Assembly (NCBI GenBank): GCA_009829735.1
Contig: CM020620.1
Coordinates: forward strand, 20,558,020 to 20,622,019
Direction: 5' to 3'
Length of the DNA stretch: 64,000 nt
DNA from: Pyropia yezoensis
Lineage: Eukaryota; Rhodophyta; Bangiophyceae; Bangiales; Bangiaceae
Shown here one piece after another: positions 1-27,797 of the stretch. The translations under genes and the position numbers were made by a program. The number at the start of each line of letters is the position of its first letter. The first letter of the stretch is position 1. The notes beneath the pieces are model-generated. The model worked only from the letters and a program-made list of their open reading frames with translations. It ran no database searches and was not told where the DNA came from.

Positions 1-63
1 TCGGACTCGTCGTCTTCCTCCCCGCCCTCAGATTCGGACGCCAAGTCGGCGGGAAACGAATGA
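1..63 (+). CDS. family A gag, C-terminal end (partial)
   Basis: The window opens inside the last 20 codons of the family A gag. The frame reads an acidic Ser/Asp-rich tail ending in GNE and stops at TGA 61-63. The same tail is found at the end of the A- gag (10823-10761). The TGA overlaps the pol start codon in an ATGA arrangement (ATG 60-62), so pol is in the -1 frame. The rest of this gag lies before the window. Confidence 0.7.
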   Translation, partial: SDSSSSSPPSDSDAKSAGNE

Positions 64-3000
64 CCGTTGGGGCTGGTCGTCCGAAGCTCACAACGGCAGC
101 CTCGGCCAAGTGGGCCAAGAGGACGGACCAACCGTGCCGGATACTGCGGCGACCCAAGGGAGTCCGCCCACCTCCGGTAGGACTCCCCAAGAACGTAAAC
201 CCACGTCGGGTCATCGCGGTGCTGACGGGTGAGAACTTCCAGGTGGCTGGACGGGTGCAACTTGCCCCCGGCCGCGCCTGTTGTGCCCGTATCGTACTTG
301 ATACCGGGTCAGGAGCCTCCTTGATACGCAAGTCGCTATTACCAAAGGAGGTGAAGCTCCAACGCTGGAGGTCCAAAGCTGACCATATGATTGACATCAA
401 TGGTGGGGTACTTCCCATCGTTGGTGCCGTGACCCTACCAACTAGGTTGGGGACCCATGAGGTCGACGTGACCTATGGTGTAGTTGAGAATATATCGGTA
501 CCCCTGCTTCTGGGTACCCCTTATGTTGTTACACAAGTGCCTTTGATTTGTGGCCCTGAGTACTGGGTCAAGTTGATGAATGGGGAGACTATCCCCATCC
601 TTGGTAAGGGAAAGTCTGTGGCTCCTGTGACAGTCTCACAGTCGAAGCCTGTTTGCTCTGTGAGGGAAGGGTTTACTGCTACCCTGCGTTTAGCCCGTAA
701 AGTCACGTTGCCCCCCAACTCGGTGGCGCACGTTGACGTTGTAACTGATTATACGGGGAACGGGTTGGTGCACCCTTACCCCCGTCTTGCTCGCAAGCAC
801 CAAGTGCATGTTGCCCTTGGCACGATCGAATCCAAAGCCGGAGTCCCGTGGAGGATACAGGTGATGAACCTGAGCTCGTCGCCCCAGTACTTCAAGTCGG
901 GAGCCAAGTTCGGCTATATCGACCAACACGAGGGACCGGTAGTAGCGGTCACCCTCAACGCGGGCGCAAGTAGCGACCCGAAGTCCGGAAAGGAGAAGCA
1001 TCAAGCCAAGTCGGCCGCCTCTCCTCGGCCCCATGTGAACATGGAGGGTGTTCCCCCCAGGTTGAGGGTTCAAGTTGAACGCCTCTTGGACCAATATCAC
1101 AAGTTGTGGGATGGTCAATTGGGACTCATGAGAGCTACCCAACACCGGATCGAGTTGAAGCCCGGTGCACCCCCTATACGCCAACAACCGTATAGGGGAG
1201 GACCTCGTTCAAGGGCCCTCGTTAAGGAGCAAGTTGCTCGCATGGAGGCCCTCGATGTGATCGAGGCCAGCAACGCCGAGTGGGCGAGTCCAGTGGTTAT
1301 CGTCCCCAAAGTTGATGGGACCTTCCGGTTCTGTATCGACTACCGTAAGCTCACCGAGAGCACGGTGAAAGACAGTTATCCCTTACCTAGGATGGACGAT
1401 TGTCTGGACTCTCTGGGGGAGGCAAACGTGTTCTCTACCCTGGACTGGAACGCGGGGTACTGGCAAATTCCCATTGTCCCGGAGGACAGGCATAAAACTA
1501 CCTTTACCTGTCACTGTGGTACCTACCAGTGCAAGCGTCTACCGTTTGGTCTGTGTAACGCGCCGGCAACTTTCCAGCGCGCTATGGACATGATTCTGGC
1601 CGGAGTACGGTGGCAGATCTGTCTTGTGTACCTAGACGATATCATTGTGTTCTCCCGAAGTCCGGAGGAACACATTGGCCATCTTGGCCAGGTGTTCAAG
1701 CTACTTGCTGACGCCGGTGTGTCACTGAAGGCGAGTAAGTGCCACCTCTTCACTCAAGAGGTGGAGTACTTGGGACATGTTGTCCGTCCGGGGCGTCTCA
1801 GTGTTAACGAGAAGAACTTGAGGGCCATCCGCAAGGCTCAGTACCCCCGGACCCAGACCCAGATGAGGAGCTTCCTCGGGATGTGTAACGTGTACCGACG
1901 TTTCACCAAGGGCTTCGCCAAGGTGGCGAAGCCGTTGAGTGAGTTCGTGAGCTCAACGCTCCTGAAGAACCTGCCTCCCCCAAGTCGGGTGGAGCAGGAA
2001 TCCTTTGAGACTCTTCGGGACCTTCTGCTGAAGCCCCCTATCCTGGCTATTCCCAAGTTGGGAGGCCCCTACATCCTAGATGTGCACGCTACCTACGACC
2101 AACTTGGTTGTGTGTTGCTTCAGCAGCAGCCGGACAAGGAGTACTTGCCGGTGGGATACTTCAGCAAGGGGCTGAACTCGGCCGAGAAGAACTACGGAGT
2201 CACCGAGTTGGAAGGACTCGCAGTGGTGTGGGCGGTGACGTCACTTCGTCACTACCTGGAGGGTGAGAAGTTCCTCATCCGCTGTGACCACCGCGCGTTG
2301 CAGTTCATCTTTAAGACGGACTGTACGAACACTCGTCTCAACCGGTGGAGGGTGCGACTGGCACCCTTCAAGTTTGATATTGAGTACCGACCTGGCAGGC
2401 AACATGCCCTTGCCGACGGCCTCTCTCGGGTACCTCCCGAGGGGCTGGACACTAACTCAGTCGATGAGGACATCCCCATCGTGGGGGTAGTCACGCGCTC
2501 GGGTCAGGCGTTGAGCCGCGAGGCGCCAGGGAACAAGAAGTACTTGCCCCTGTCCCTGGACGAGGTGGTGAAGGCCCAGGCCGAGGATCCCTTCTGCAAG
2601 TCGCAGAGGGATACACTGGATACAGTGGTGGAGACGCGTTTCTTTCTGGGAGACGATGGCCTCCTCATGAGGAGGGGGGTATTCCAAGGGGCTGAACAAC
2701 TTGTCGTCCCCGCATCCCTCAAGGACAGTATCCTTGAGAGGGAGCACAACGCTCCCACGGGTGGACACCTGGGGTCTAGTAAACTGTACCAGACCCTGAG
2801 GACCAGGTACTACTGGCCGTCCATGGTGGTGGACATCTACAGTTGGGTGGCTGCCTGCACAAGTTGTGCACAGAACCGTCTGATGGAACGGCGGCCTAGT
2901 ACGGCTATGCTATTGTTCCCGGCCAAGGAGCCCTTCGCCGCGTTGGCGATGGACATCCTTGGGCCACTGCCAGTGACCGAGGAGGGCAACGAGTACCTCC

Positions 3001-4043
3001 TGGTCATCTGTGACCGCTTCACGAAACTTACGCGAGCGATCCCACTGGCAGAGATCACGGCCATGTCGGTCGTGTCAGCCTTCCTAGATCACTGGGTTGC
3101 CGCGTATGGCATCCCAGATAGTACACTATCGGAAAATGGACCGCAATTTGCGTCTGTACTGTTTCAGGGAGTGCTGGATATGTTGGGGGTTAAGGCAAAC
3201 TATGCCACCCCCTACCACCCACAAACTAATGGGCAGGTGGAGCGCTTCAACAAAACTATTGTTAGGCAGCTGCGCCACTATATGAGTGAGCACGTGAAGA
3301 CGTGGGACCAATACATTTCTATTCTTACTACCGCCTACAATTCGCAGGTTCACTCATCTACCGGGGAAGTACCCCTCGCTTTTGTGACCCCCCGTCGCGT
3401 GCGGTCTATTGCCGTGCGGTGGCCGCTCCCAAATAGGGAGGATGGTGGCAGGACGCCTACTCCTACTGAGAGTAAGGCGGAGTTCGCTGCTAGGCTTGAA
3501 AACCTCATCCCTAAAGTCAGGGCTGAGATGGACAAAGCACAAAAGCGCTACAAGCGTACCTTTGACAAAAAGGTGCGCAACGCCAAGCATGTTCCCGAGC
3601 AGGGTGACTGGGTGCTGGTACACTCACACACCCCAACTGGGGGTAAGTTGGTATTCCAGACGAAGGGGCCGTACCAGGTCCTTCGTACTGATGGGCGGCG
3701 CTTCACCATCGAAAGTGACGATGGGGTCCGCACAGTGAACGGACAGGACGTGGTCAAAGTTGCACCACCGCCTGCAGGCGACCCAGCTTGGGCGCGTGCT
3801 TTGGAAGCGTGGCGCCTCCCCTCACTGCCTGCGGCCAAACAGGGCCCGCAGGAGTACGTGTTCGATAAGTTCATCGACCACGGATGGGATGAAGACACTG
3901 ACCGCCTCATGTTGAGGGTGCGTTGGTTTGGCTACAAAGCCAAGGACGATACGTGGGAGTTTGTGGAGGACCTTCCCGCTGAGAAGGTCCGGGCGTACTG
4001 TGCCCGGAATGAGATAGACCCTAGCAGCCCTCCCTCAACGTGA
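60..4043 (+). CDS. pol: Ty3/gypsy Pol polyprotein, family A copy A+
   Basis: A 1327-residue polyprotein that would copy the element RNA and insert the DNA. In order: retropepsin with LDTGSG near residue 80; reverse transcriptase with YLDD at about 524-527; RNase H with Asp/Glu/Asp near 674, 715 and 742; integrase with an HHCC zinc-binding module (His near 896, CTSC near 933) and the DDE core with first Asp near 964 and Glu near 1060; a GPY motif near 1203; and a chromodomain-like C-terminus around 1264-1314 (WFGYKAKDDTWEF). This is the domain order of chromodomain-bearing Ty3/gypsy elements. The expected second catalytic Asp of the integrase is Glu here (LSENGPQF, residue 1025). Start chosen at the ATG that overlaps the gag stop. 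It differs from A- at about eight residues and no indels. Reading frame intact. Confidence 0.95.
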   Translation: MTVGAGRPKLTTAASAKWAKRTDQPCRILRRPKGVRPPPVGLPKNVNPRRVIAVLTGENFQVAGRVQLAPGRACCARIVLDTGSGASLIRKSLLPKEVKLQRWRSKADHMIDINGGVLPIVGAVTLPTRLGTHEVDVTYGVVENISVPLLLGTPYVVTQVPLICGPEYWVKLMNGETIPILGKGKSVAPVTVSQSKPVCSVREGFTATLRLARKVTLPPNSVAHVDVVTDYTGNGLVHPYPRLARKHQVHVALGTIESKAGVPWRIQVMNLSSSPQYFKSGAKFGYIDQHEGPVVAVTLNAGASSDPKSGKEKHQAKSAASPRPHVNMEGVPPRLRVQVERLLDQYHKLWDGQLGLMRATQHRIELKPGAPPIRQQPYRGGPRSRALVKEQVARMEALDVIEASNAEWASPVVIVPKVDGTFRFCIDYRKLTESTVKDSYPLPRMDDCLDSLGEANVFSTLDWNAGYWQIPIVPEDRHKTTFTCHCGTYQCKRLPFGLCNAPATFQRAMDMILAGVRWQICLVYLDDIIVFSRSPEEHIGHLGQVFKLLADAGVSLKASKCHLFTQEVEYLGHVVRPGRLSVNEKNLRAIRKAQYPRTQTQMRSFLGMCNVYRRFTKGFAKVAKPLSEFVSSTLLKNLPPPSRVEQESFETLRDLLLKPPILAIPKLGGPYILDVHATYDQLGCVLLQQQPDKEYLPVGYFSKGLNSAEKNYGVTELEGLAVVWAVTSLRHYLEGEKFLIRCDHRALQFIFKTDCTNTRLNRWRVRLAPFKFDIEYRPGRQHALADGLSRVPPEGLDTNSVDEDIPIVGVVTRSGQALSREAPGNKKYLPLSLDEVVKAQAEDPFCKSQRDTLDTVVETRFFLGDDGLLMRRGVFQGAEQLVVPASLKDSILEREHNAPTGGHLGSSKLYQTLRTRYYWPSMVVDIYSWVAACTSCAQNRLMERRPSTAMLLFPAKEPFAALAMDILGPLPVTEEGNEYLLVICDRFTKLTRAIPLAEITAMSVVSAFLDHWVAAYGIPDSTLSENGPQFASVLFQGVLDMLGVKANYATPYHPQTNGQVERFNKTIVRQLRHYMSEHVKTWDQYISILTTAYNSQVHSSTGEVPLAFVTPRRVRSIAVRWPLPNREDGGRTPTPTESKAEFAARLENLIPKVRAEMDKAQKRYKRTFDKKVRNAKHVPEQGDWVLVHSHTPTGGKLVFQTKGPYQVLRTDGRRFTIESDDGVRTVNGQDVVKVAPPPAGDPAWARALEAWRLPSLPAAKQGPQEYVFDKFIDHGWDEDTDRLMLRVRWFGYKAKDDTWEFVEDLPAEKVRAYCARNEIDPSSPPST

Positions 4044-4320: not shown

Positions 4321-5129
4321 CCTGTGGCAAAAACCACATGCACACACGGCACCCAAGTTGGGGCGGTGTGCAAGGGCTGCCTTCCGTTTCGGGGGAACCG
4401 GAAGAAGTGCAAGTCGCACACACTCTGTCCCTGTTGTGGGGCAAACACCCCACGGACAAACAAGAGGATGGTGTGTGGTCCAACAGTTTCTTGGTCGGGA
4501 CGGGGACGCAGGGCCAAGCCCCGCTGTCCCTCCCCTTATCCCCCCAGGGTCCCCTCAGAATCTCGCCACTCAGAATCTCCCACCCCAGCACCTGCCCACC
4601 GGGCCACACGAAAATTCAAGACGATAAATGCAGAAAACCCTCAAATCCAAGTTGGATTTACTACTAAGCTAACTATCCCAAACTTAGGGAATATGGACCC
4701 AAATGCAGGGGGAGGAACGGATCAGGCTAGTGGCCAGCCGCCCCTTGCATGGCACGTGTTGCCCCCCTACCTGGGGGTCAATACTGCCACACTCCCCTCT
4801 CCTCACTTCCGACCGACCCGGTCGGCCCTGTGAGGGGGTGCGTAAACGCACGTCTCGGCGTTGGGGGCGCGACTTGCTGTCCCCCATCGAGTACGTAACA
4901 CGGATGTGGAGGCGGTCACGTTGGCCGCCCCTCTCCTCAAGCTTGCCCACTCGGCAGCTTGCTCTCCTCAGTTCACACTTCACCATCACCACCACCTCCC
5001 CTTCACCTTCCACTGGGCCGCCCCACGCTGGGGAGGCCACCCGCCTACCCACGATCCGAGTCCCCCTCAACTCGAGGCGCGTCTCGTGCCGCTGCAGCCA
5101 GGGCGTCTCTCCACAACTTGGGGAGAGCC
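4321..5129. other. spacer between family A arms, no intact gene
   Basis: No convincing gene. A cysteine-rich patch in the plus frame at about 4336-4440 (CKGC, then CKSHTLCPCCG) looks like a zinc-binding fragment but has no ATG or recognisable family. A 17-bp near-palindrome with the core CAAGTTG lies at 4642-4658, and a GTGCGT/ACGCAC hairpin near 4840. By position this should hold the 3' LTR of the A- element, but I could not find its ends because no second A LTR is in the window to compare with. Confidence 0.4.
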
Positions 5130-6675
5130 ATGGCGACCCCGGGAGTGGAGACGGACTCTCTTGACGAGCGTATGGAGGACCCCACCTACGGTGCAGCACC
5201 CGCCGGGACTTCCGGCGGGGGCTGCGCGATCGCTCCGGGGGACGGGACTCCCGCGTCACCCGGCTTTGGGTTGACGGCGGGATCTCCCCCGGAGGCGGGA
5301 CAAGTTGTCCCGCGTGAGGCCTTGGGGCGGTGGTTTTACCCCGCTTGGCCTCTCTATGAGGAGGGGTTGACTGTTCTTCGCTGTGGCCGACTTGGCGCAG
5401 CGATGGGTCGGGTATGGGACCGCCTACGGGAGAAGTATCACCGTAGAATCGGGTTTCCTGCCGGCTTCAGGACGGACCAGTTTGCCTTCCTGGACGACGA
5501 AGAGGTCGAAGATGTACAGCGTGCCAAGGCCATGGTGGACCGCGGGGGAACTATCCCGGGTGCCGGCGACTTGCCGACCTTTACTTGGGACGCGGTGGCA
5601 ACACGCCCCCCGTACCTTCACGAGGCCGATCCGCACACTCATCACTTTGATGTGCGGATGGAGAAAGACTTCCCGCGAGGTCCCTACTTGGTGACCTCGG
5701 CTCAACTTTAGTTTCCTCAACAGTCTGCTGCCAGCAAGGAGCAGTACTATCCGAAGAAGCCCGAGTGGTGGCCTCAAGTTGAGGTCCCCTACGGGTTCCC
5801 GGCGTTGCTGCCACGGTTGCTTGACCACGGGAGTGAATCGCCACACTGCGCCACCCCCGGACAAGCCCATAGTTATGGCTGTGCCCTCATATGATGACCA
5901 TATGACTCAACCTACTGCGGGGGCCGCAAGTCGGGGTCGCAGTTATACCCGGGTACCGCCACCTCGGCGTGCCCCTCCGCTTCCTCCTGTTCCTTTCCAG
6001 CCTCACGGGGACATCCCGACTAGCGTGGCCGTGGAGTCTTCCACCCCGGTTTCCCCCAACTTGGGGGCCACCCTCCTGACGGTATACCCCAAGTTGGTGT
6101 TACCGCCCACGCCTCTAACCTCAGAGATGATGATCACCACGTTGGTGCGCACCATTTCCTGGTTGGCCGCGTCGACCGCAACCCTCCAAAGTTCCGAGAC
6201 TCCTCAACTTGAGGAGCGCGTTCGTACTGCAGTGGCGACCGTGAGTTGCGAGTCGGTGGCGGAGTTTATGACAGCCGAGTTGGCTCGCATTGGGGCTATT
6301 TTTCCCCAGCCAGCCCCACTTGGGCGTGGCAAACGTCGCGCGAGCCGGGCATACTCGCCTCCTCGTCGTCGTCGCCGACACTCTCGGCGCTCTCCCTCCG
6401 TGTCGGAAGACTAGTTGTCTTACTCCGTTTCGGAGAGCTCTACCCCGTCGGAGACGGAGTCTGTCCAGCGTCTGCGTCGCAAACTTGCGCGCAAGACCAG
6501 GCAGAAGAGTAGTCACGGTCGGCGCCACTTGCGCGACCGTGAAGGGCGCGACGGTTCCGACTTGGAGCCGCCGCCCCTTCCAACGAGTGGAGACCGTTAT
6601 CGGCGTGGGTCTCGCCGCTCGCCTCCACGTGAGGGCGAGGGCCGTGGAGTGGGAGAGTCTAGCATGCGTGCCTAG
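5130..6675 (+). pseudogene. family A antisense ORF (reverse to A- pol), broken
   Basis: Reads toward the A- pol and ends 105 bases from its stop, so the two are tail-to-tail. From ATG 5130 the frame has an acidic N-terminus and a globular-looking middle (GRVWDRLREKYHRR). It meets TAG at 5709-5711, continues coding-like in the same frame to TGA near 5894, then moves by one frame at about 5880. From there a Pro-rich region, a helical stretch (TAELARIGAIF) and an Arg/Ser-rich tail run to TAG 6673-6675, with another TAG at 6412-6414. I do not recognise the protein. The first TAG sits where a CTCAACTTGAG palindrome would be expected, so one G-to-T change would explain it. Family B has an antisense ORF in the same place. 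Confidence 0.5.
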
Positions 6676-9600
6676 TTGGCAGCTGCCTTTGTTGTGAGAG
6701 TGTGAGGGTTAGGGCTGTAGTTAAAAGCCACTCTGCGTACCACTTCGACTTGAAGCACTCTTTTGTTGCTCGACCTTCCCTCACGTTGAGGAAGGGCTGT
6801 TAGGGTCTATATCATTCCGGGCACAGTACGCCCGGACCTTCTCAGCGGGAAGGTCCTTCACAAACTCCCACGTATCGTCCTTGGCTTTGTAGCCAAACCA
6901 ACGCACCCTCAACATGAGGCGTTCAGTGTCTTCATCCCATCCGTGGTCGATGAACTTATCGAACACGTACTCCTGCGGGCCCTGTTTGGCCGCAGGCAGT
7001 GAGGGGAGGCGCCACGCTTCCAAAGCACGCGCCCAAGCTGGGTCGCCTGCAGGCGGTGGTGCAACTTTGACCACGTCCTGTCCGTTCACTGTGCGGACCC
7101 CATCGTCACTTTCGATGGTGAAGCGCCGCCCATCAGTACGAAGGACCTGGTACGGCCCCTTCGTCTGGAATACCAACTTACCCCCAGTTGGGGTGTGTGA
7201 GTGTACCAGCACCCAGTCACCCTGCTCGGGAACATGCTTGGCGTTGCGCACCTTTTTGTCAAAGGTACGCTTGTAGCGCTTTTGTGCTTTGTCCATCTCA
7301 GCCCTGACTTTAGGGATGAGGTTTTCAAGCCTAGCAGCGAACTCCGCCTTACTCTCAGTAGGAGTAGGCGTCCTGCCACCATCCTCCCTATTTGGGAGCG
7401 GCCACCGCACGGCAATAGACCGCACGCGACGGGGGGTCACAAAAGCGAGGGGTACTTCCCCGGTAGATGAGTGAACCTGCGAATTGTAGGCGGTAGTAAG
7501 AATAGAAATGTATTGGTCCCACGTCTTCACGTGCTCACTCATATAGTGGCGCAGCTGCCTAACAATAGTTTTGTTGAAGCGCTCCACCTGCCCATTAGTT
7601 TGTGGGTGGTAGGGGGTGGCATAGTTTGCCTTAACCCCCAACATATCCAGCACTCCCTGAAACAGTACAGACGCAAATTGCGGTCCATTTTCCGATAGTG
7701 TACTATCTGGGATGCCATACGCGGCAACCCAGTGATCTAGGAAGGCTGACACGACCGACATGGCCGTGATCTCTGCCAGTGGGATCGCTCGCGTAAGTTT
7801 CGTGAAGCGGTCACAGATGACCAGGAGGTACTCGTTGCCCTCCTCGGTCACTGGCAGTGGCCCAAGGATGTCCATCGCCAACGCGGCGAAGGGCTCCTTG
7901 GCCGGGAACAATAGCATAGCCGTACTAGGCCGCCGTTCCATCAGACGGTTCTGTGCACAACTTGTGCAGGCAGCCACCCAACTGTAGATGTCCACCACCA
8001 TGGACGGCCAGTAGTACCTGGTCCTCAGGGTCTGGTACAGTTTACTAGACCCCAGGTGTCCACCCGTGGGAGCGTTGTGCTCCCTCTCAAGGATACTGTC
8101 CTTGAGGGATGCGGGGACGACAAGTTGTTCAGCCCCTTGGAATACCCCCCTCCTCATGAGGAGGCCATCGTCTCCCAGAAAGAAACGCGTCTCCACCACT
8201 GTATCCAGTGTATCCCTCTGCGACTTGCAGAAGGGATCCTCGGCCTGGGCCTTCACCACCTCGTCCAGGGACAGGGGCAAGTACTTCTTGTTCCCTGGCG
8301 CCTCGCGGCTCAACGCCTGACCCGAGCGCGTGACTACCCCCACGATGGGGATGTCCTCATCGACTGAGTTAGTGTCCAGCCCCTCGGGAGGTACCCGAGA
8401 GAGGCCGTCGGCAAGGGCATGTTGCCTGCCAGGTCGGTACTCAATATCAAACTTGAAGGGTGCCAGTCGCACCCTCCACCGGTTGAGACGAGTGTTCGTA
8501 CAGTCCGTCTTAAAGATGAACTGCAACGCGCGGTGGTCACAGCGGATGAGGAACTTCTCACCCTCCAGGTAGTGACGAAGTGACGTCACCGCCCACACCA
8601 CTGCGAGTCCTTCCAACTCGGTGACTCCGTAGTTCTTCTCGGCCGAGTTCAGCCCCTTGCTGAAGTATCCCACCGGCAAGTACTCCTTGTCCGGCTGCTG
8701 CTGAAGCAACACACAACCAAGTTGGTCGTAGGTAGCGTGCACATCTAGGATGTAGGGGCCTCCCAACTTGGGAATAGCCAGGATAGGGGGCTTCAGCAGA
8801 AGGTCCCGAAGAGTCTCAAAGGATTCCTGCTCCACCCGACTTGGGGGAGGCAGGTTCTTCAGGAGCGTTGAGCTCACGAACTCACTCAACGGCTTCGCCA
8901 CCTTGGCGAAGCCCTTGGTGAAACGTCGGTACACGTTACACATCCCGAGGAAGCTCCTCATCTGGGTCTGGGTCCGGGGGTACTGAGCCTTGCGGATGGC
9001 CCTCAAGTTCTTCTCGTTAACACTGAGACGCCCCGGACGGACAACATGTCCCAAGTACTCCACCTCTTGAGTGAAGAGGTGGCACTTACTCGCCTTCAGT
9101 GACACACCGGCGTCAGCAAGTAGCTTGAACACCTGGCCAAGATGGCCAATGTGTTCCTCCGGACTTCGGGAGAACACAATGATATCGTCTAGGTACACAA
9201 GACAGATCTGCCACCGTACTCCGGCCAGAATCATGTCCATAGCGCGCTGGAAAGTTGCCGGCGCGTTACACAGACCAAGCGGTAGGCGCTTGCACTGGTA
9301 GGTACCACAGTGACAGGTAAAGGTAGTTTTATGCCTGTCCTCCCTGACAATGGGAATTTGCCAGTACCCCGCGTTCCAGTCCAGGGTAGAGAACACGTTT
9401 GCCTCCCCCAGAGAGTCCAGACAGTCGTCCATCCTAGGTAAGGGATAACTGTCTTTCACCGTGCTCTCGGTGAGCTTACGGTAGTCGATACAGAACCGGA
9501 AGGTCCCATCAACTTTGGGGACGATAACCACTGGACTCGCCCACTCGGCGTTGCTGGCCTCGATCACATCGAGGGCCTCCATGCGAGCAACTTGCTCCTT

Positions 9601-11571: not shown

Positions 11572-11572
11572 T

Positions 11573-11589
11573 TGGTGGAGCAGCAGGGG
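11573..11589 (+). promoter_or_regulatory. putative primer binding site, family B
   Basis: TGGTGGAGCAGCAGGGG starts one base after the LTR end, as expected for a site pairing with the CCA 3' end of a tRNA. I could not match it to a particular tRNA. The same site is at 27434-27418 in B-. Confidence 0.6.
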
Positions 11590-13979: not shown

Positions 13980-13987
13980 GAGGAAGA

Positions 13988-17143: not shown

Positions 17144-17363
17144 TTTGTTGTTCTACCTTGGCCGGCGGTGGATTCGCCACCGGCCCCCTCGTTATAAACC
17201 CTCGGGAGACACTACTAACTACCCTCCACCCCAAGATGCAAGTCCCTCTGGTCATACGTAACTTATAGATACCGTGACCAGCTCGGACTCTCAAATTGAA
17301 GTTAAGGATTAGAAGTAGCCCCCCTGATATTAGGGTCACAATACGGACAACCATATTGCTACA
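17144..17363 (-). repeat. family B 3' LTR (B-), truncated by the gap
   Basis: Minus-strand LTR beginning TGTAGC at 17363, 220 bp visible. It matches the first part of the 27797 LTR. It carries one extra G near 17205 relative to the other copies, again close to the gap. Confidence 0.88.
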
Positions 17364-17378
17364 TATCCCCCCCTTAGA
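17364..17378 (-). promoter_or_regulatory. polypurine tract of B-
   Basis: On the minus strand AAGGGGGGGATA directly precedes the TGTAGC of the 3' LTR. This is the expected primer for plus-strand DNA synthesis and confirms that the LTR at 17363 is the 3' one of B-. Confidence 0.7.
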
Positions 17379-17948
17379 TTCGGCCCGTCCTCGGGTCGAG
17401 TTGCATTCGGGTTACCGAATGTAAGTGGGTCGCGTGACTGTTTACCCGTCGGGTGGGGCTTTGCGCCCCGTCGCGACAGACACCCCTTTTCGAGGTTGTC
17501 CGAGGGGGGTGCCCCACTTTGTGTGGTACACACACGATCCGTTTTCCGGACCGTTAATTTCCCGATGCGGGTTTTTGTTCACGGACCCCCCTTTCCGAGG
17601 GGTGGTGCAAGCGGATCCGCCACCAGGTGCCTGGTGGTAGGGGGTCCCTCTCGTGTGGACGATTGAGTGGGGGGCGAGGGCTGCCCGCGTTGCGTGGGGG
17701 CGGTTGGGGGTGACCCCCCTTGCTTACCCCATGTGTGGGGGTGGCCCCGTCCCGCCCAGGTGCCTGGGTGGGGCGCGTTCGTAGCCCCGTGCGGCGTGGG
17801 TCGACCCGCGTGTTTGCGGCGCTGCTCGTGGCCGTTTGTGGTCATAAGCGCGGGTGCCTGCGCTTCCCTGGCTCGTCCCGGTTATCCCACCGTACCGGGT
17901 CGTAGCCGTCGACGGCTTGTGGGCGCGGGGGACTCTGCACCCGTTATC
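17379..17948. other. region between 3' LTR and antisense gene of B-
   Basis: About 570 bases without a clear gene. Rich in short hairpins, for example CCACCAGG and CCTGGTGG at 17620-17637 and CCCAGG/CCTGGG near 17757. If the antisense gene is transcribed, its promoter would be expected here or in the LTR. Confidence 0.4.
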
Positions 17949-20397: not shown

Positions 20398-20851
20398 GGA
20401 GTGCTATTGTTTGTGCGGGAGAGGGCCCCGGCAACCCTTATGGTAGCCGGGTAGTAGTGAGTATAAACTCATCCCCTTTGGGGGCATTGCTTGCCTCTGT
20501 TTGCTGCCCTGGGGAGTACCCCTTCTGGCTCAGTGGTGCCTTGCCTCCCGTCCAACTTCTTCCGGTAGGTTCATGCTTGGGGAGGTCATCCTCCCTCACT
20601 TGGTGTCTTGGCTTGGGGAGGTCGTCCTCCCGTGTAAGCTCCCTAGTTACTTCGATATTGTCGGAGTTAGCCTTTACCTTTAAGTTAACTTATTAAGGTT
20701 CAGGTTTTACTTAGTTACCTAAGCTTGGTTCGACTTAGAAACCTAAGTCTGATTTGACTTAGAAACCTAAGTCTGCCGTAACCACGTCACACCCTACTTA
20801 GTAGGTATAAGCCTCACCCCCCAACAGCCAAAGTCGGTGTCGGTTGGGTTG
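20398..20851. other. spacer between convergent antisense ORF and pol of B-
   Basis: No gene. Holds GGGGAGGTC(A/G)TCCTCCC hairpins at about 20578 and 20617 and the tandem hairpins at 20710-20773 (separate entry). Confidence 0.6.
20710..20773. terminator. three tandem hairpins between convergent ORFs
   Basis: GACTTAGAAACCTAAGTC occurs twice (20732-20749 and 20756-20773, 24-base period), preceded by a related CTTAG-TTAC-CTAAG at 20710-20723. Each has 5-7 bp arms and an AAAC or TTAC loop. Placed between tail-to-tail ORFs, they could act as bidirectional 3'-end or transcript-stop signals. That role is inference. Confidence 0.3.
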
Positions 20852-23800
20852 TTACAGTAGGCGTCGTCGCCTCATGTACGGCATGAGGAGTTGGCGGGGT
20901 ATATTTGCCGCCTGTTCCCAGGTGGGTGAGTCGCATCCGACCCACATAACCTTGACGTACCAGGGTCCTGGTAGGTCCGGGTCGGCGTGTCCGACCACGC
21001 TCTCTACTTGGTATGGAATCCCATCCGGTCCCACCGGGTCATCTGACCGGTGGGTTGTAAGAGCTTCATGTAGCAACCCAGCCGGTACCGGCTGAGGCTG
21101 TTCCGGCATCGGAGCAGGTGTGACGTCATTCATGCTGATGCGTTGAATCTCGGTATCGGAGTGTAAGATAACAGAGTGGTCATCTCTGTGGAGGATCTGG
21201 TACGGTCCCTTGACCGGTTGCATAAGCTTGTTCCCTCGGAACTTCTGGTGTCTGATATAGACCCAGCCACCTGTTACCAGGGTTGCGTTGCGCACCCGTA
21301 GTCGGGCGTTGAAGTTCTTCTCATACCGAAGTTGTGTTCTGTCAAGGGCACCCTTGAGCTTAGGAATCATCCACGATAGCTTGGCCAACCAAGCTAGGTG
21401 GATGCGTTCGGCGGGTCGGCCCTTCGGTGTATCATACCGAGTGCACCTGCCGGGTGGCAGCGTCAAGTTACCGACGCCTAGTGGCATGACCCACTCCAGC
21501 GGAGCAATGTTTGTGCTCCGATGTGGCCTGGCATTGTATGCCAGGGTGAGTACGGACAGAAGCCTGTCCCAAGTGTTCGTGTGCTCGGCCACGTAGCACT
21601 GTAGCATCTTTACGATGGTGCGGTTGAACCGCTCCACCTGCCCGTTGGACTGCGGGTGGTAGTCGGATGCCCGACGTGGTTCGATACCGAACATGCCCAG
21701 GACCTTAGTGCAGAATGCCGACGTAAGGTTTGCTCCTTTATCGGAGAGGAGTTGCTTCATGACTCCGTATGCACTGATCCAGTGGTCAACCACTGCGTTC
21801 ATGATCGTGTATGCCGTATCATTCGGGATGGCTGCCGCTCTTGACAGCTTAGTGAAGCGGTCAGACATGACCAGGATGTACCTGTTCCCTTCTTCCGTTA
21901 TCGGAAGTGGCCCGAGTATGTCGATAGCGACTTGCTCGTTGGGCCCATCAGGTGGGAATAGCTTCATGGCAGACGCCCGCCTATGTAGACCAATGCGGTT
22001 ACGTGCACAGGGGTGGCATCCCCTTACGTGGTCGATCACGTCGACGGCCATTGCTGGCCAGTAGAAGAACCTTCGCATTGCTGCGAACATACGTGAACCC
22101 CCCGGGTGTCCGGCTGTAGGGTTCTCATGTTCTCGTTTCATGACGGCTTGCCGTAAGGACACGGGAACCACGACTTGATGTCGTCCATCGGCGGGTGCCC
22201 GCCGGTATATGAGTCCGTCTTCGTTCTCGGAGAAGATGCCGGCCGTACCGGCCAGGAGGTTAGCACGATGACGTCTACAGTCATCGTCGTTGGCCTGTGC
22301 CTCGCGGAAGTCCGCGAGGGTCAATGGGCACGCAAGGTGTGCCATGGTATGGTCAGCCATACCCTGGGTAGCATTACCCACCATGCACACCGGTACTACC
22401 GGGATGTCCTCGTCCACCGGGCGGGTATCCCCGCTCGGGGTGTCGAGTCGAGACAATGCGTCTCCGAGGTGGTGGGTTGACCCAGCCTTATACACCGTGC
22501 GGTAGTCGTGCTCGGCCATCTTCAGCCTCCATCGGGCTAGCCTCCCATGGCTATCGGAATCCTTGTCACCAAGGTTGAGGAGCCATCGTAGGGGTTCGTG
22601 GTCGGACCCCACGATGAACCTGGAGCCCTCCAGGTATGGACGGAGCAGTTGCACTGCCCATATAACTCCGAGGCATTCACGCTCGGTGGCACTATAGTTC
22701 CGCTCAGCCGGGTTGAGTGTCCGGCTGAAGTACCCTACCGGACGTAGGTCCGGGATAACGTTGTCGGTACCTATCAACGTCTCTCCCTGTAACAGGGTGC
22801 ATCCCACTTGTGTATCACACGCATCGACATCGATGACGAAGGTACCCCGTCTATGCGGTAACGCAAGGACGGGTGGGGCTAGTAGGGCTCGCTTCAGCCA
22901 CTCGAATGCCTCCTCTTCGCTAGGCGAAGGGGGTTGGAGTACCTTGGGTAAGGTACTGCTCGTAAGAACCGTTAACGGTTTAGCTATCCGAGCGAAGTCC
23001 TTGACGAACCGTCGGTATACATTGCACATTCCCAGGAAGCTCTTGAGCTGCGTCTTGGTGTTAGGGAACCGGGCATCCCGGAGTGCCCGGGTATTGGCTT
23101 CGAGTACCCCTAGTTTACCAGGGGTTATCTGGTGGCCCAGATACTCGACCGTCTGTTGGAAGAAGGCGCACTTCTTCAGACGCAGGGTTACCCCGGCGTT
23201 CCTCAAGAGGGTGAGTACCTCGTCAACATGTTGTACATGGTCATCCATGTTACGCGAGAAGACGATGACGTCATCGAGGTACACTAGGCAGTTACGCCAC
23301 TTCACCCCCGACAGTATGATGTCGATAGCCCGCTGGAATGTAGCGGGGGCGTTGGACAATCCGAAGGGCATCCTTAGGAACTCGTACACTCCACTGTGAC
23401 AGACGAATGCCGTCTTGGGGATATCCTCGTCCGCCACCGGGATCTGCCAGTATCCGGCATTGCAGTCGATGGTGGTAAACACCGTAGCCTCCCCCAGGGA
23501 GTCGATGCATTCATCCATCCTTGGTAAAGGGTATGAGTCCTTCTTGGTAACCAAGTTGAGGCGTCGATAATCGATGCAAAACCGAGGGGTTTGATCCTTC
23601 TTCGGCACAATAACGACTGGGGCACCCCATTCCGACATCGAAGGTCGGATCACCTTAGCTTCACTCATCCTCTTCACTTCTCCATCAACGATCTCTCGTT
23701 GCATAGGTCCCGCTCGGTGCGGTTGTGAGCGGGCGGGTCGTGCGCCTGGTACCAGGTCTATACGATGTTGGGTTGCCCCAATGGTCCCCAAGGCCCCGCC

Positions 23801-25018
23801 TGTCCACATAACGTCATGCTTTCTTAGCATCCGTCGTACCCCTTCGGCTACCGAAGGGGGAAGGTGGTCGAGGTCAGCCTCGGCCAGTGCCTTCAAGGCC
23901 TCTTGGTCCTTTGGCGGCAGGTCCGCCGGAGCCGCCGATGGGTTAGGCTTCCCGTCATCGGGTTGCTGTCGCTCGGTGGTCTCGGCGACCGCCAGTACTT
24001 CAAGTGGTTCCACTTGACCTTCCTTATCAGGGGTAAGGATATCTCCTTCGTAGAGTTCGGCAATCCCGAGGATAGTTCCCTTCGGGAGGGTGACTGCCTT
24101 ACGGCGATAGTTCGCCATCACTAGGAGGGACGACCCTCCTGCTGGGAGGTCTATGAGACCGTTGGCCATGGTCAACCCATGGCGCTTGTACGTCCGTAGG
24201 TTGGACTGGACTCTGCAGATGCCTGCGAGGTCGCAGTTAACCGGGAGGACTGTCTCTGACAACGGCTCAAAGCGAGTTCGCTTGGCCAACCGAAGTGTCT
24301 TCGGCTCGACGCTTGCGTACACCTCAGCCACGTTAACGTGGCTTCCTTGTAGCGTCAGGTCCCTGACGATAGCCGTGTGTCCTCGCTTCGTCCCGTCGGC
24401 TTCTTGAAGCTCGACGGTCCTCCGGCCTGGCCGGATTGCATCAACGTGAACGTTGATGAAGGTGCACCCCAGTATGCAGGGCACCGATAGCGTTTCACAT
24501 ACCAGGAAGTCAACTTCCGTGGTGAGATCCCCGATGGTAACCTGCAGCGACATCGCTGCGGTCGTACGAATGAGTCGACCATTTGCGTCCTTGATGGTGG
24601 GTCCCCGAGTCACTCTGACTCGTGGAAGCCACTTGTCCGGGAGGGTATCCTTCCGGATAAGGTTGGGTCCAGCCCCTGTGTCCAGTACAGGGTAGTACGA
24701 TCGTGTCGACTGGGGGTCAACCCCCAGTGTGGCTGATACCTTGAAGTTCTCCAAGGTAAACAACACATGTCCTACACCGATATCCGGTGTAGCTCGGGCA
24801 TCCTGAATAGGGCCCTTGTCTGGTTCAACGTGACGGGGCTTCCCGTCCTCTCCTCCCAACCTTGGAGGTTGGTCATCAATCCCCTGACGCCGTGTCGTCG
24901 GGGCCGGAAGGTGTACCCGGGGGTTGATGCGGCGTCGGCTCAACCGCGCTCTCCGTGGGGCTTTCCCCGCGGTACTCCGGGGTGGCTTGCTTGGGTAACC
25001 CCAGCGCCCCCCGGTCAT
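20852..25018 (-). CDS. pol: Ty3/gypsy Pol polyprotein, family B (B-)
   Basis: Intact 1388-residue polyprotein. A basic N-terminal linker; retropepsin (LDTGAG near residue 115); reverse transcriptase (YLDDVIVFS near 580); RNase H (DVDACD near 727 and GSDHEPLRWLL); integrase zinc module (His in HENPTAGHPG near 966, CHPC near 1002); DDE core with Asp in AIDILGPLP near 1033, Asp in LLSDKGANLTS near 1090 and Glu in NGQVERFNR near 1122; a KGPYQIL motif; and a chromodomain-like C-terminus (VMWVGCDSPTWEQAANIP). Unlike family A, the second catalytic Asp is present. Start ATG is 8 bases after the gag stop in the -1 frame. It diverges strongly from family A but keeps the same architecture. Confidence 0.95.
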   Translation of the reverse strand: MTGGRWGYPSKPPRSTAGKAPRRARLSRRRINPRVHLPAPTTRRQGIDDQPPRLGGEDGKPRHVEPDKGPIQDARATPDIGVGHVLFTLENFKVSATLGVDPQSTRSYYPVLDTGAGPNLIRKDTLPDKWLPRVRVTRGPTIKDANGRLIRTTAAMSLQVTIGDLTTEVDFLVCETLSVPCILGCTFINVHVDAIRPGRRTVELQEADGTKRGHTAIVRDLTLQGSHVNVAEVYASVEPKTLRLAKRTRFEPLSETVLPVNCDLAGICRVQSNLRTYKRHGLTMANGLIDLPAGGSSLLVMANYRRKAVTLPKGTILGIAELYEGDILTPDKEGQVEPLEVLAVAETTERQQPDDGKPNPSAAPADLPPKDQEALKALAEADLDHLPPSVAEGVRRMLRKHDVMWTGGALGTIGATQHRIDLVPGARPARSQPHRAGPMQREIVDGEVKRMSEAKVIRPSMSEWGAPVVIVPKKDQTPRFCIDYRRLNLVTKKDSYPLPRMDECIDSLGEATVFTTIDCNAGYWQIPVADEDIPKTAFVCHSGVYEFLRMPFGLSNAPATFQRAIDIILSGVKWRNCLVYLDDVIVFSRNMDDHVQHVDEVLTLLRNAGVTLRLKKCAFFQQTVEYLGHQITPGKLGVLEANTRALRDARFPNTKTQLKSFLGMCNVYRRFVKDFARIAKPLTVLTSSTLPKVLQPPSPSEEEAFEWLKRALLAPPVLALPHRRGTFVIDVDACDTQVGCTLLQGETLIGTDNVIPDLRPVGYFSRTLNPAERNYSATERECLGVIWAVQLLRPYLEGSRFIVGSDHEPLRWLLNLGDKDSDSHGRLARWRLKMAEHDYRTVYKAGSTHHLGDALSRLDTPSGDTRPVDEDIPVVPVCMVGNATQGMADHTMAHLACPLTLADFREAQANDDDCRRHRANLLAGTAGIFSENEDGLIYRRAPADGRHQVVVPVSLRQAVMKREHENPTAGHPGGSRMFAAMRRFFYWPAMAVDVIDHVRGCHPCARNRIGLHRRASAMKLFPPDGPNEQVAIDILGPLPITEEGNRYILVMSDRFTKLSRAAAIPNDTAYTIMNAVVDHWISAYGVMKQLLSDKGANLTSAFCTKVLGMFGIEPRRASDYHPQSNGQVERFNRTIVKMLQCYVAEHTNTWDRLLSVLTLAYNARPHRSTNIAPLEWVMPLGVGNLTLPPGRCTRYDTPKGRPAERIHLAWLAKLSWMIPKLKGALDRTQLRYEKNFNARLRVRNATLVTGGWVYIRHQKFRGNKLMQPVKGPYQILHRDDHSVILHSDTEIQRISMNDVTPAPMPEQPQPVPAGLLHEALTTHRSDDPVGPDGIPYQVESVVGHADPDLPGPWYVKVMWVGCDSPTWEQAANIPRQLLMPYMRRRRLL

Positions 25019-25026
25019 CCTTCCTC

Positions 25027-27210
25027 TTACTCGTTTCCCGCCCTTGGTAGGGTGCTGTCCGCCGGGACATCCGGCTGAGGAGGTGCCCCCTCGATGGCCA
25101 GTACTCCACCTGGAGCTGGCTGCCTACCCGGTGCGGGTCCGGGTGCTCGGGCGGGATACCCCCCGGTGGATGCCTTGCGTTGCGCCGCTGCCCGCCGAGA
25201 CTCCTCGGGGATGAGTGGGCAGGAAGACACCCAGTGCTGGGGATCCCCACACAACATACACCCGGACGTGCCGGTCCCCCCTTGAGTTCGCATAGGGGTA
25301 GCCCCGTAGCTACGGTTGCCTCCCTCGGGCGCCCGAGTGCCTGCTCCCTGGTAGGCCTTGGGTCCTTGGGTCAACCGGAACATGGACTCCCCCAACCGGT
25401 TGGGTCGGCCCGCAATCTGCGGGGGTGCCTCCGTGCGCACCGCTCATGTTGGCAAGGGTTGGTGAGGGTTACCCGTCACCGGGGAGTACCCCGTAGTCCG
25501 CACATACGGGACGCGCCGTCCCGTTCCTTCGTTGACCTGGAACTGGGTTCCAGCCGGGGCGATGTACGCTACCGTACCATGTTCATCAATCACCGGCGTC
25601 GCCGGTAGCAACAGGTGGCCCTGTTGGTCGACTAGAGGGTCATCCTCACCAATAGGGGTATGTTCGGTCGCCACCAGTACTGGTGCGGCCTTACGTTCCA
25701 CCTTCTCTTGCCTCGGTACCGGGGTAAGACTGGGCTTGCCTCCCTCACCCTTGGGCTTCGGGGCCAAGGCACACTCCGGGTGTAGAACCCGGTAGGCGTC
25801 CCCTAGGGACTTGCACATATGCATCAGTCGACTGAAGTTCGTCCGTACCGTGTTGGCGCCCCGTGCGGATATCCGCACGTAGTTGGGTACTCCTGCGAAC
25901 AGGATGGCCCGTAGCTCCCCTTCTCCGAGGAGCTTCCCCAGCTCGTAGTCGAGCTCTTGGATCCGGCGTCCAAACATCTCCTCATCCTCCCAGGACTGGG
26001 CGGTGGCAGTGCGAAGGGCCCGATAGTGGTCCTCGCACTTGTCCTCACTGAGGTAGCTGCTCAGCAGCTCCTTCAATATCCCACGGTAATCCATGGGGGT
26101 GGCCGCGACCCTCATTCCCCGCATCGGGGATGCCTGGCGAAGAATGCCTCGCACCCGTTCATCAACAAAGAACGGGAGGATCTCCAGGGCCAGCCCCTCG
26201 TTAACGAGCGCCTTGTCTGCGGCTGCCTTGAAGCTAGTCAAGAAGCCGATGACTGCCAACGGGCGTCCGTTCGGCCCCCCGAACATAGGGACTCCCTTCA
26301 TAAGGGTCTGCATAGAGCGGATCGCCCGATGCGACGTATTACGCATCGATTCCGATACGGTGGTAGAGCGGTCCTCCAAACGATAACGTTCCGGAGTAAG
26401 AACCGACCGGAAGACCTCGTTGACGATCTCCGTGTCTTCGTCCTGGATATCCAGTCGCTTAGCCAGTTGATGAGCGAACTCATCGGACTCCATCCGCTTC
26501 AGTAGGCTCGCAGTTACCTGCGCGGTCATAGCTTCCACCACTGAAGATGGTACTTCAGGCGTCGGCACCTCGGGAACCCGAGTTGCCTGGCCTCCTTCGT
26601 CGGGGGGGTACTGCGAGAGGGTACCCCCTCCCCCAATAACCGACTCTCCCCCGGCGTACGTATCCGCCGGGTCGTGTCCGCGGAGTCCGCTTCGGGTGCT
26701 CCGAGCGTATCGCTCCGTGTGACTCCGTTCCAACTCTGCCGACGAGTCGGACCCATACCCCATTGTGTCCGGGGGTTGTCCAGGAGTAGCAACCCCGGGA
26801 TTGACCCTGGTGGACTCCGAAAGTAGTCCGGCCGGTTCGAACCGTACCGGTGTGGGAGGAACACGACGGGGTCCCGTCGTGTGCCGTGTTGACATCAACA
26901 CTGCCATTGCGTCCTCCGTCCGATCTTGACGGGCGTCGAGCCCGGAAAACCGGGCCTCGATGCGGGCCAATGATGCCATCAGGGAATCCCCTGGTGAAGG
27001 AGGCGGCGGAGTGAGGTCGGTCGACGACAGTTGAGGCGGGCCCCCGCCTCCTGCCGTCCGAGCCGTGCCAAACGTCGATCCGGCACCGGAAAGCATTGGG
27101 GTCTCAATGTTATCGATCGGGTTCCCGATCCCTGTTCCCGTAGTCACCTCCGGAGTCGGCGTCGACGCCGATCCGTCATCTTGAACGTTCCCCGTCTCTT
27201 GGGTAGACAT
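25027..27210 (-). pseudogene. gag: family B gag (B-), nonsense codon
   Basis: Same protein as the B+ gag, with the CCHC knuckle near 25270-25230, but codon TGG of B+ is TGA here (25443-25441), cutting the product about 138 codons early and before the zinc knuckle. The frame is otherwise open to TAA 25029-25027. Start ATG at 27210. A handful of other substitutions separate it from B+, so the two are distinct copies or alleles. Confidence 0.85.
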
Positions 27211-27435
27211 AGTCACAATCAGTCCACCGACGCAACGATCACCACGAATAAGAGAGCGAGGGGGTAGATTGGGGAGAGTAACAGTATGTCACAGTCACAG
27301 GTAAAAGCTCAACACAATCGATCAGGTCGCAACACCACGAGTACAAGAAAAGGACCGGATCCCTATCCGTGTGCCAGGGCCGAAGACGGCGTCACCACAA
27401 GGGTGACGGAAACCCGTCCCCTGCTGCTCCACCAA
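27211..27435 (-). other. 5' leader and primer site of B-
   Basis: Mirrors 11572-11795. Contains the reverse complement of the primer site at 27434-27418. No gene seen. Confidence 0.7.
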
Positions 27436-27797
27436 TGTAGCACAATAGGAATCCGTCGCACGTCCACTCTCAGGGAACACTCACCAAGGGGGATCGGCAC
27501 CAACGTCACCGGGAGGCCAAGGTTGCTGTCCTTGGAGCGCAAGCCACGGGACCAAGATGGGAGCCCAAATGGGAGGGGTTTGTTGTTCTACCTTGGCCGG
27601 CGGTGGATTCGCCACCGGCCCCCTCGTTATAAACCCTCGGAGACACTACTAACTACCCTCCACCCCAAGATGCAAGTCCCTCTGGTCATACGTAACTTAT
27701 AGATACCGTGACCAGCTCGGACTCTCAAATTGAAGTTAAGGATTAGAAGTAGCCCCCCTGATATTAGGGTCACAATACGGACAACCATATTGCTACA
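27436..27797 (-). repeat. family B 5' LTR (B-)
   Basis: 362 bp, opening TGTAGC at 27797 and closing with CTACA at 27436. One base shorter than the B+ LTR. The outer flank (GGGTG...) does not match the flank of B+ (CAACTT). Confidence 0.9.

Follow-up and report, generated by a model that had tools for sequence, protein, structure and literature searches.

Ordered RNA structure on a genome scale is a known phenomenon, and the packaging sites of RNA viruses are stem-loops with a common loop feature. Multiple RNA packaging sites dispersed over the genome promote assembly in RNA viruses, as outlined in PMC6281560. The mitochondrial genes of Nematomorpha carry coding palindromes with arms of up to 284 bp and, like here, perfect inverted repeats lie in conserved coding sequence at positions that are dynamic between relatives, as outlined in PMC6649704. 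Template switching at quasi-palindromes has a further likeness to the present case in that it would yield perfect inverted repeats that are short and have small loops, on the accounts given in PMC8604942 and PMC8794818. In the open-licence literature, taken by titles and the beginnings of abstracts, no such hairpin saturation was found described for LTR retrotransposons, and nothing was found that brings Pyropia, retrotransposons and inverted repeats together.

The window analysed here, a stretch of 64,000 nucleotides from Pyropia yezoensis, carries copies of two retrotransposon families, A and B, with the following features:

60..4043, plus strand: family A copy 1 (A1), pol ORF of 1327 amino acids with reverse transcriptase (RT), RNase H and integrase (Pfam)
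1742..1764, plus strand: example of an A hairpin, stem 9, 5-nt loop CACTC
4322..6700, strand not assigned: family A sequence outside pol, probably belonging to the 3' portion of A2
6781..10764, minus strand: family A copy 2 (A2), pol ORF of 1327 amino acids, an inverted near-identical copy of A1
11209..16643, plus strand: family B copy 1 (B1), LTR start TGTAGC, gag 11790-13979, end of the pol frame at 15767
14278..14297, plus strand: example of a B hairpin, with TTGA as physical tetraloop and G..C as closing pair (as sequence, arm 9, loop 2)
17144..27797, minus strand: family B copy 2 (B2), as present in the window
18172..20397, plus strand: ORF of 741 amino acids antisense to B2
20852..25018, minus strand: B2 pol ORF of 1388 amino acids (Pfam)
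25444..27216, minus strand: B2 gag ORF of 590 amino acids

The inverted arms of A1 and A2 extend over 1-4060 and 6764-10823, and the 3' side of B1 enters an assembly gap. B2 runs from its 5' LTR (27797-27435) through gag (27216-25444), pol (25018-20852) and the antisense ORF to the start of the 3' LTR. Since A1 and A2, and likewise B1 and B2, are near-identical, the window amounts to two independent samples and not four. The order RT, RNase H, integrase is present in the pol of A and B2, and also in that of a further family, D (Pfam). B has LTRs of the form TGTAGC...GCTACA and 5-bp target-site duplications (TSDs) in five of eight copies, judged by eye from end pairs, with no match in one and two unreadable. 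A, B and D are Ty3/gypsy LTR retrotransposons by their domain order, and B additionally by its LTRs and TSDs; hairpin saturation and a large antisense ORF past pol are the differences from Ty3/gypsy elements generally. A Pfam search with the 741-residue antisense product yielded no family above the cut-off, and Rfam gave 0 matches above the gathering score in positions 1-28000.

The earlier note had described both families as dense in inverted repeats within coding sequence, and this was borne out: all 13 quoted repeats were found in place, their arms perfect and 7-10 long and their loops 0-8, and those at 18580-20396 sit in the antisense ORF of the B2 element. The figure of 0.14 per kb that it gave for chance is approximately correct. 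When inverted repeats were counted against codon- and dinucleotide-shuffled controls, A and B lay far above the controls and host ORFs did not. For arms of at least 8 and loops of at most 8, observed numbers against dinucleotide shuffles were 6 against 0.6 in the A ORF, 19 against 1.6 in B at 11790-20397 and 13 against 0.3 in B2 pol. For arms of at least 7 against codon-preserving shuffles they were 33 against 2.6 in B2 pol, 14 against 1.9 in B2 gag, 11 against 2.3 in A pol and 11 against 1.8 in ORF 18172-20397. At arms of at least 7, the window's remaining nine ORFs (32.5-61.8 kb) showed no clear excess (0-5 against 0.8-4.7 codon-shuffled); the stretch 27798-64000 as a whole, which is rich in direct repeats, is mildly raised (16 against 8.5, arms of at least 8).

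Hairpins with stems of at least 5 gave 55 against 21.4 codon-shuffled in A1 pol, 36 against 12.9 in B2 gag, 41 against 14.8 in the antisense ORF 18172..20397 and, as the strongest signal, 91 against 24.9 in B2 pol. The excess over codon-preserving shuffles is thus about 2- to 13-fold, varying with family and stem length, and these shuffles rule out the repeats as a by-product of codon usage or GC content. The whole B2 element holds 202 hairpins (stem at least 5, loop 3-8) where 58.8 are expected, covering 3251 of its 10654 nt. B is far richer than A: loads are similar in A, D and a family E (44-55 per 3.5-4 kb) and reach 91 in 4.2 kb in B. Spacing of B hairpins is weakly even (CV 0.69 against 0.81+-0.07 under random placement). 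The inverted excess is local: it extends to loops of about 12-20 nt and has vanished past 20-40. For direct 6-mer repeats, B2 at 20852-27734 shows no increase, but numbers are patchily raised in A (at spacing 0, for example, 5 against 0.9), in its tail and at 17400-20840.

The unit is a short hairpin of 4-7 perfect pairs with a loop size specific to the family: 4 nt in B, 5 in A, 5-6 in D and 3-4 in E. Tetraloops of B are closed by G..C in 94 of 119 cases, and loop position 2 of A is A in 26 of 31. Conditional pairing in B is 0.71 for the pair leaving a 4-nt loop, 0.37 for that leaving 2 and 0.26 for that leaving 0, while in A it is 0.56 at a 5-nt loop and 0.30 at 3; pairing being near chance inside the loop, the hairpins are folded single strands and not duplex palindromes. 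In B, stem extension returns to chance past about 7 pairs. Stem sequences are arbitrary, and the hairpins of a family have nothing in common but the size of the loop and the bases that flank it, so that palindromic units spreading inside the element, another cause that had been suggested, are rejected.

The arrays resemble dispersed viral packaging sites in their many stem-loops with a shared loop feature and a free stem, and differ in their strand-symmetric loops, the disuse of G.U as a pair in standing stems and their number, 202 in 10.65 kb, with binding by a coat protein putative. With genome-scale ordered structure they share, in the ORFs tested, a folding energy well below that of codon shuffles; unlike that varied structure, they are uniform short hairpins and not clearly sense-specific. 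Long arms of the nematomorph type (tens to hundreds of bp) are absent from A, B and D, where the longest perfect arm is 10 in A and B and 11 in D. In contrast to the long repeats outlined in PMC6649704, stems of 4-11 bp here carry a fixed family-specific loop, the setting is LTR retrotransposons of the nucleus, and the evidence points to selection and not to conversion.

With families grouped by BLAST identity, hairpins occur in at least five related Ty3/gypsy families, A, B, D, E and F. Against codon shuffles, z is about 5-14 (stem at least 5) for A, A', B pol, gag and antisense ORF, D and the subgroups E1-E3, and F gave 51 against 18.1 for dinucleotide shuffles. Four distant gypsy loci, three of family C and one, L013, presumed to be distant, were not clearly raised (z 0.7-2.4), and two copia loci (z 0.8 and 0.9) and six host ORFs (z -0.2 to 1.8) showed no clear excess. 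Among those sampled, the trait belongs to one gypsy family group and not to retrotransposons generally. Conservation of hairpin positions between families was rejected, five of six family pairs deviating from a rotation null by no more than 1.6 SD; the exception is A-E, with 8 of 24 shared against 2.6.

Selection was tested in one family, E, with an E1 sample of seven copies (L040 and L100 partial) and with 71 deep-branch sites that the outgroup did not resolve dropped from the polarisation. Among 139 E1 singletons, which represent unfiltered mutations, losses of hairpins with stems of at least 4 were as expected (44 against 42.7). Among 350 changes on replicative branches losses numbered 82 against 115.1, a figure as low being reached in 0 of 300 null draws, and among 119 deep-branch changes 19 against 39.2 (5 against 17.3 for stems of at least 5); second hits mask part of the old losses, by a rough estimate 10-20%. 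Polarised gains on the replicative branches were not in excess (35 against 36.0; 10 against 15.2). Control losses for the 350 changes were 128 against 123.9 for long-loop complements and 89 against 89.0 for mirror repeats, and on the deep branch 36 against 43.5 and 32 against 29.2, respectively. The controls were not flat throughout: besides the deep-branch value for long-loop complements just given, mirror-repeat losses among the 139 singletons lay below random (23 against 35.8, P 0.033) and mirror-repeat gains were up on the deep branch (48 against 30.9). With unfiltered mutations random, breaks avoided on replicating branches, gains not in excess and controls on those branches without avoidance, the evidence favours selection over template switching in family E. 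Sorted by the mismatch that the broken pair becomes, changes on replicative branches are depleted for those leaving A.C (26 against 50.1, ratio 0.52), weakly for those leaving G.U (30 against 36.7, 0.82) and not at all for those leaving other mismatches (38 against 39.0, 0.98), a pattern that departs from simple pairing selection.

In eight B copies, variable sites did not avoid repeat arms (21 in arms of at least 7, against 17.5), and B singletons are probably filtered, since they are biased to third positions (55 of 89). Pooled over A, B, D and E, hairpin codons were not less conserved than others (p 0.81); those of B alone were (0.37 against 0.43, significance having been computed for the pooled families only). 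Left and right arms are conserved alike (p 0.70), and one-directional arm copying was rejected on this ground. Between A and A', in unpolarised comparisons, repeat changes lay below random (24 against 39.2+-9.2 for arms of at least 6; 4 against 18.2+-6.3 for arms of at least 7), with 16 hairpin losses against 21.8 (P 0.15).

Template-switch repair had been proposed as one cause. In its most developed form, which we judge unlikely, the element's own RT would make the stems by foldback (snap-back) switching: the nascent cDNA end folds on a nucleus of 3-4 bp, uses its own arm as template over a few bases and then goes back, so that perfect stems arise during synthesis of either strand and family loops reflect RT preferences. 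This would account for stems of Watson-Crick pairs only, the minimum loop, strand symmetry, arbitrary stems, the bias at the loop-adjacent pair and the restriction to some RTs, and quasi-palindrome switching is established in other systems, as outlined in PMC8604942. Unpolarised E comparisons gave 14 gained repeats against 7.2, and gains of arms of at least 6 numbered 14 against 8.9 on the E2 and E3 branches (P 0.10) and 17 against 13.5 on all replicative branches (P 0.20). Against it stand the polarised gains and depleted losses given above, B singletons with 7 gains against 6.4, and B2 noncoding sequence that is not richer than coding (stem at least 6: noncoding 15 against 3.8, 3.9x; coding 89 against 13.1, 6.8x). 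Gained repeats with at least two changes in one arm are mixed, at 3 against 1.0, 4 against 1.0, 3 against 1.5 and 1 against 1.5 in four directions and 1 against 1.2 and 1 against 1.5 in the two from E1. Pairing resumes modestly past the first mismatch in B (0.29-0.37 against about 0.25) and D (up to 0.34 against 0.23) and is at or below shuffled values in most classes of E. Template-switch repair is therefore not favoured, the polarised gains not being in excess and pairing past the mismatch being modest; relative to quasi-palindrome switching as sketched in the sources cited, the family-specific loops are a further difference.

Selection for RNA structure, the remaining cause suggested, fared better in its first half than in its second, in that selection is supported in E and RNA as the structure is not. 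An ordinary selected structure of the genomic RNA, whether ordered on a genome scale or made of packaging hairpins and confined to the sense strand, would explain the minimum loop, the defined stem, the stronger depletion of A.C than of G.U and the folding energies of A pol, B pol and B gag, which are lower than those of codon shuffles by 14-21%. Folding gains in sense and antisense are 13/9% in D, 10/4% in E1 and 11/5% in E3, better in sense, but 19/18% in A, 21/19% in B pol, 14/16% in B gag and 7/11% in the antisense ORF. Standing G.U pairs are no more enriched than other mismatches (1.27x against 1.30x; Watson-Crick 5.6x) and loop profiles are strand-symmetric (p 0.17-0.79), both of which fit RNA folding poorly. 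RNA as the folding strand is not supported because G.U is unused as a pair in standing stems and A and B fold about equally in both senses, and we consider this explanation improbable. A relic of a past process, now in neutral decay, is more improbable still: the eight B copies show losses over gains (21 against 9) at random rates, and the shared and unshared E repeats of the unpolarised data fit decay of a richer ancestor, for which reason those data are no proof of equilibrium, but deep E losses are half of random while the controls are not, and loads are similar in A, D and E and higher in B. Palindromes acting as duplex in chromosomal DNA, as dimer binding sites, integration targets or cruciforms, are almost certainly not the answer. 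The loop profile is strand-symmetric, the motif CAAGTTG/CAACTTG recurs in A (17 occurrences in 1-6700, and at the centre of four of seven inverted repeats with arms of at least 7 in the non-pol stretch 4061-6700), and B1 lies within a CAACTTG-centred palindrome of A. Complementarity nevertheless ends at the loop, short of the axis, and stems are arbitrary; a loop length equal to the TSD was rejected, B having loops of 4 and readable TSDs of 5 bp.

We put at about even the prospect that the dense hairpins of at least five related P. yezoensis Ty3/gypsy families are selected, those of each family probably being bound by its own protein. In A, B, D, E and F the dense array runs through most of the element, whichever strand is coding. 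On the selected-hairpin reading, weak purifying selection would maintain it during the single-stranded phase of the element, as genomic RNA and/or cDNA; density would matter and location hardly. The likeliest cause of the family-specific loop would be binding by the element's own nucleic-acid-binding protein, candidates being Gag/nucleocapsid or the antisense-ORF product, by analogy with the dispersed packaging or assembly sites of some RNA viruses. A narrower version, which we think doubtful, is a hairpin code for each family, in which hundreds of near-interchangeable hairpins, set by codon choice, would be read by its own protein as particles assemble or during reverse transcription; families in one cell could then tell their own nucleic acid apart. 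A point against the selected-hairpin reading is that strand-symmetric loops are odd for a protein that reads one RNA strand.

The system bears on how retroelements distinguish their own genome from other RNA and on whether dense short hairpins across coding sequence are selected, and it would extend ideas of dispersed signals from RNA viruses to LTR retrotransposons; were foldback switching the cause, a reverse transcriptase would be rewriting its own genome into hairpins. One host offers several related families with differing loops, distant gypsy and copia elements as built-in negative controls and many near-identical A and B copies, and selection and mutation are for that reason separable.

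Beyond this host, 19 of 20 gypsy contigs from other organisms were tested, L085 being omitted as a near duplicate of L084, and a scan of viral contigs confirmed no relative. The closest relative from another organism, L080, showed no hairpin excess, and most of the tested contigs had z between -2.2 and 1.7 in every class. Hairpins were more weakly raised in L092, L089 (stem at least 5) and L087 (stem at least 6 and at least 7), and raised in L093 (20 against 7.1) and L090 (28 against 15.5).

The Pyropia yezoensis genome, as outlined in PMC7423979, has a GC content of 65% and three scaffolds of 43.6, 34.3 and 29.4 Mb. Positions 1-27797 of the window carry two LTR retrotransposon families, A and B, assigned to Ty3/gypsy from the order of their domains and each present as two inverted copies. 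At least 148 further copies of A occur at 98% RT identity (150 matches were scored, two being the window's own), and there are at least 34 pol copies of B, the window's included. B copy 2 occupies the stretch between 27797 and an assembly gap of 500 N (16644-17143), located between the inverted B copies and within the B2 3' LTR, and their inverted arrangement could reflect an assembly join at this gap. A further ORF accompanies B2:

18172-20397, opposite to B2: 741-aa ORF beyond pol, no Pfam family above cut-off

A protein search with this ORF, where scoring was limited to the 7988 candidates having most words in common, yielded seven matches, five from Pyropia vietnamensis (42-53% identity) and two others at 95% and 80%, which suggests that its product is probably a conserved element protein.

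An earlier note, made from the sequence alone, held that both families are saturated with short perfect inverted repeats, and all 13 repeats that it quoted were recovered in place. The density was borne out for arms of at least 7 and loops of at most 8: B2 pol contains 33 repeats compared with 2.6±1.6 in 60 codon-preserving shuffles, B2 gag 14 (1.9 codon-shuffled), A pol 11 (2.3) and the antisense ORF 11 (1.8). The contrast that it drew with host genes also held, the nine other window ORFs showing no clear excess over such shuffles. The excess is local and inverted: inverted 6-mer pairs are over-represented at loops of 0-12, an effect that has vanished at 20-40. Direct repeats stay at background in B2 20852-27734, and in other parts of the elements their increase is confined to patches. 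In B, 202 hairpins (stem ≥5; 58.8 expected) span 3251 of 10654 nt. Hairpin saturation is a real, strong and unexpected feature.

Hairpin shape was examined through the probability that the next inner position pairs, given four paired positions outside. For B on even axes, this was 0.50, 0.65 and 0.71 when leaving loops of 8, 6 and 4, dropping to 0.37 at a loop of 2 and 0.26 at 0 (shuffled 0.22-0.31). For A, it was 0.52 and 0.56 for loops of 7 and 5 and fell to 0.30 and 0.33 further in; even axes showed no clear effect in this family. Inner pairing stops at loops of 5-6 in D and 3-4 in E, two further hairpin-rich gypsy families, and the profile of host sequence is nearly flat. Since pairing falls off at a loop size set by the family, the repeats are hairpins, their loops being of a size that lets one strand fold back on itself. 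B carries 119 tetraloop hairpins (13.8 expected), 94 of them closed by G..C, and is resembled by another such family, F, which also prefers tetraloops (17 of 24 closed by G..C); A has 31 five-nt loops (6.8 expected), 26 with an A at loop position 2. Outward in B, the probability of a further pair, counted from the fourth, declines through 0.63, 0.59, 0.51, 0.39 and 0.29, indicating stems of defined length. Past the first mismatch, B pairs modestly more often than shuffled sequence (0.29-0.37 versus about 0.25), as do A and D, and most classes of E lie at or below shuffled. Within B2 pol 3499-3525, six third-position differences in 22 nt (3504-3525) separate L045-L047 from the other B copies and accompany a perfect 7-bp hairpin, found in five copies and missing from three; a single-event hairpin gain or loss is possible.

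Against codon shuffles (stem ≥5), z is about 5 to 14 for A, its relative A', B (three ORFs), D and the three E subfamilies, 0.7 to 2.4 for more distant gypsy loci (L012, L018 and L009 of family C, and L013, counted here without an identity check), 0.8 and 0.9 for two copia loci and -0.2 to 1.8 for six host ORFs. In 29 of 30 loci from an RT search, repeats of arm ≥7 numbered 0-3, where about 1.5 were expected from dinucleotide shuffles; the exception, L010, had six, the first being A's own. A GC-poorer group of these loci reached about twice expectation at arm ≥6 (mostly 11-13 versus 5-7) and L012 gave z 3.2 at stem ≥6, so that family C is not entirely without the excess. Identity to A over RT-RNase H is about 55% for D, E and B and 37% for C. 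F (L101), with 64% DNA identity to E, has 51 hairpins (18.1 expected), the results for D and for F each coming from one locus. L080, the closest outside relative found (a contig binned as Moorena; best segment 49% identity), shows no excess (25 versus 24.1). Hairpin saturation is thus characteristic of this set of related families in this host and not of every relative, relatedness being judged by BLAST identity.

Gypsy polyprotein relatives are also encoded on 20 contigs from bacterial or archaeal bins (L079-L098), contigs that are most likely eukaryotic contaminants. Two gypsy-like contigs from such bins, L093 (2541-4100; 20 versus 7.1 hairpins of stem ≥5) and L090 (2-3049; 28 versus 15.5), are possibly unrelated cases of the same phenomenon. 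In D pol (L039 1-4001, L073), two similarities fall below cut-off: a weak one to a chromodomain (E 0.0015) and, over a C-terminal stretch, a weak one to a Dam adenine methyltransferase (PF05869, E 4e-4).

An unpolarised comparison of the E subfamilies, with 31 to 31 repeats versus 16.5 in the null, resembles strong maintenance. A richer ancestor losing its repeats neutrally would give the same picture, and changes were therefore polarised, using seven E1 copies (two partial), E2 and E3 with F as outgroup; 71 deep-branch sites lacking polarity were left out, and second hits may mask some old losses (10-20%, our estimate and not a calculation). By codon position the 139 singletons divide 45/39/55, a sign of little filtering; they broke 44 hairpins (stem ≥4; 42.7 expected) and created 12 (14.6). 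Replicative branches carry 350 changes, of which 265 fall at third positions; losses here numbered 82 versus 115.1 expected, with none of 300 null draws as low, and gains 35 versus 36.0; at stem ≥5 the values were 31 versus 50.0 and 10 versus 15.2. The 119 deep changes included 19 losses (39.2 expected). With the same pipeline, replicative losses of long-loop complements (128 versus 123.9) and mirror repeats (89 versus 89.0) were near expectation, and deep losses were 36 versus 43.5 and 32 versus 29.2, respectively. The controls were not flat throughout, mirror-repeat losses being low among singletons (23 versus 35.8, P 0.033) and gains high on the deep branch (48 versus 30.9).

Losses are avoided and gains not promoted, and the E pattern is therefore the mark of purifying selection, not of a generating process. 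Of the causes that the earlier note had offered, template switching during reverse transcription is a possible but not a favoured source of the hairpins, since replicative gains are not in excess and losses are depleted; selection for structure is the favoured one. Among eight B copies, variable sites do not avoid arms (21 versus 17.5), repeats are gained and lost at random rates and no compensatory pair occurs among the changes listed. Hairpins were broken once by 30 shared B variants (4.2 expected, P 0.06) and nine times by 89 singletons (13.2, P 0.14), and A versus A', unpolarised, shows 16 losses (21.8, P 0.15); these deficits have the same direction as in E and are not significant.

The results on strand conflict. 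In stems of B, A, D and E3 taken together (five positions), enrichment is 5.6-fold when all positions pair, compared with 1.61-fold for stems with one A.C, 1.30-fold with one mismatch of another kind and 1.27-fold with one G.U; G.U is not used as a pair in standing stems. In A and B the two strands are about equally foldable, D and E fold better in sense, and the loop profiles of B and A match their own reverse complements within error (p 0.17-0.79). Replicative changes leaving A.C (26 versus 50.1 expected) are depleted more than those leaving G.U (30 versus 36.7), as predicted for sense RNA; those leaving other mismatches show no depletion (38 versus 39.0), a result that simple pairing models do not foresee. 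The folding molecule may accordingly be either RNA or cDNA.

For function, the best clue is the family-specific loop, because thermodynamics common to the whole host, or a mutational process of the host, would affect all families alike. The simplest putative reader of the hairpins would be a protein encoded by each family, for which packaging signals dispersed over a genome, as outlined in PMC6281560, may be the nearest working analogy.

B copy 1 (from window 11209) sits inside A copy 2 at CCGCAACTT. In A1, which lacks the insertion, the site reads CCGCAACTTGCGG, a palindrome centred on CAACTTG. Another B copy (L065/L066) is flanked, by eye, by A pol, at a site that is not a palindrome. CAAGTTG/CAACTTG forms the centre of several A hairpins and occurs 17 times in window 1-6700 (11 and 6 by orientation) and 33 times over the whole window, where 6.7 are expected.
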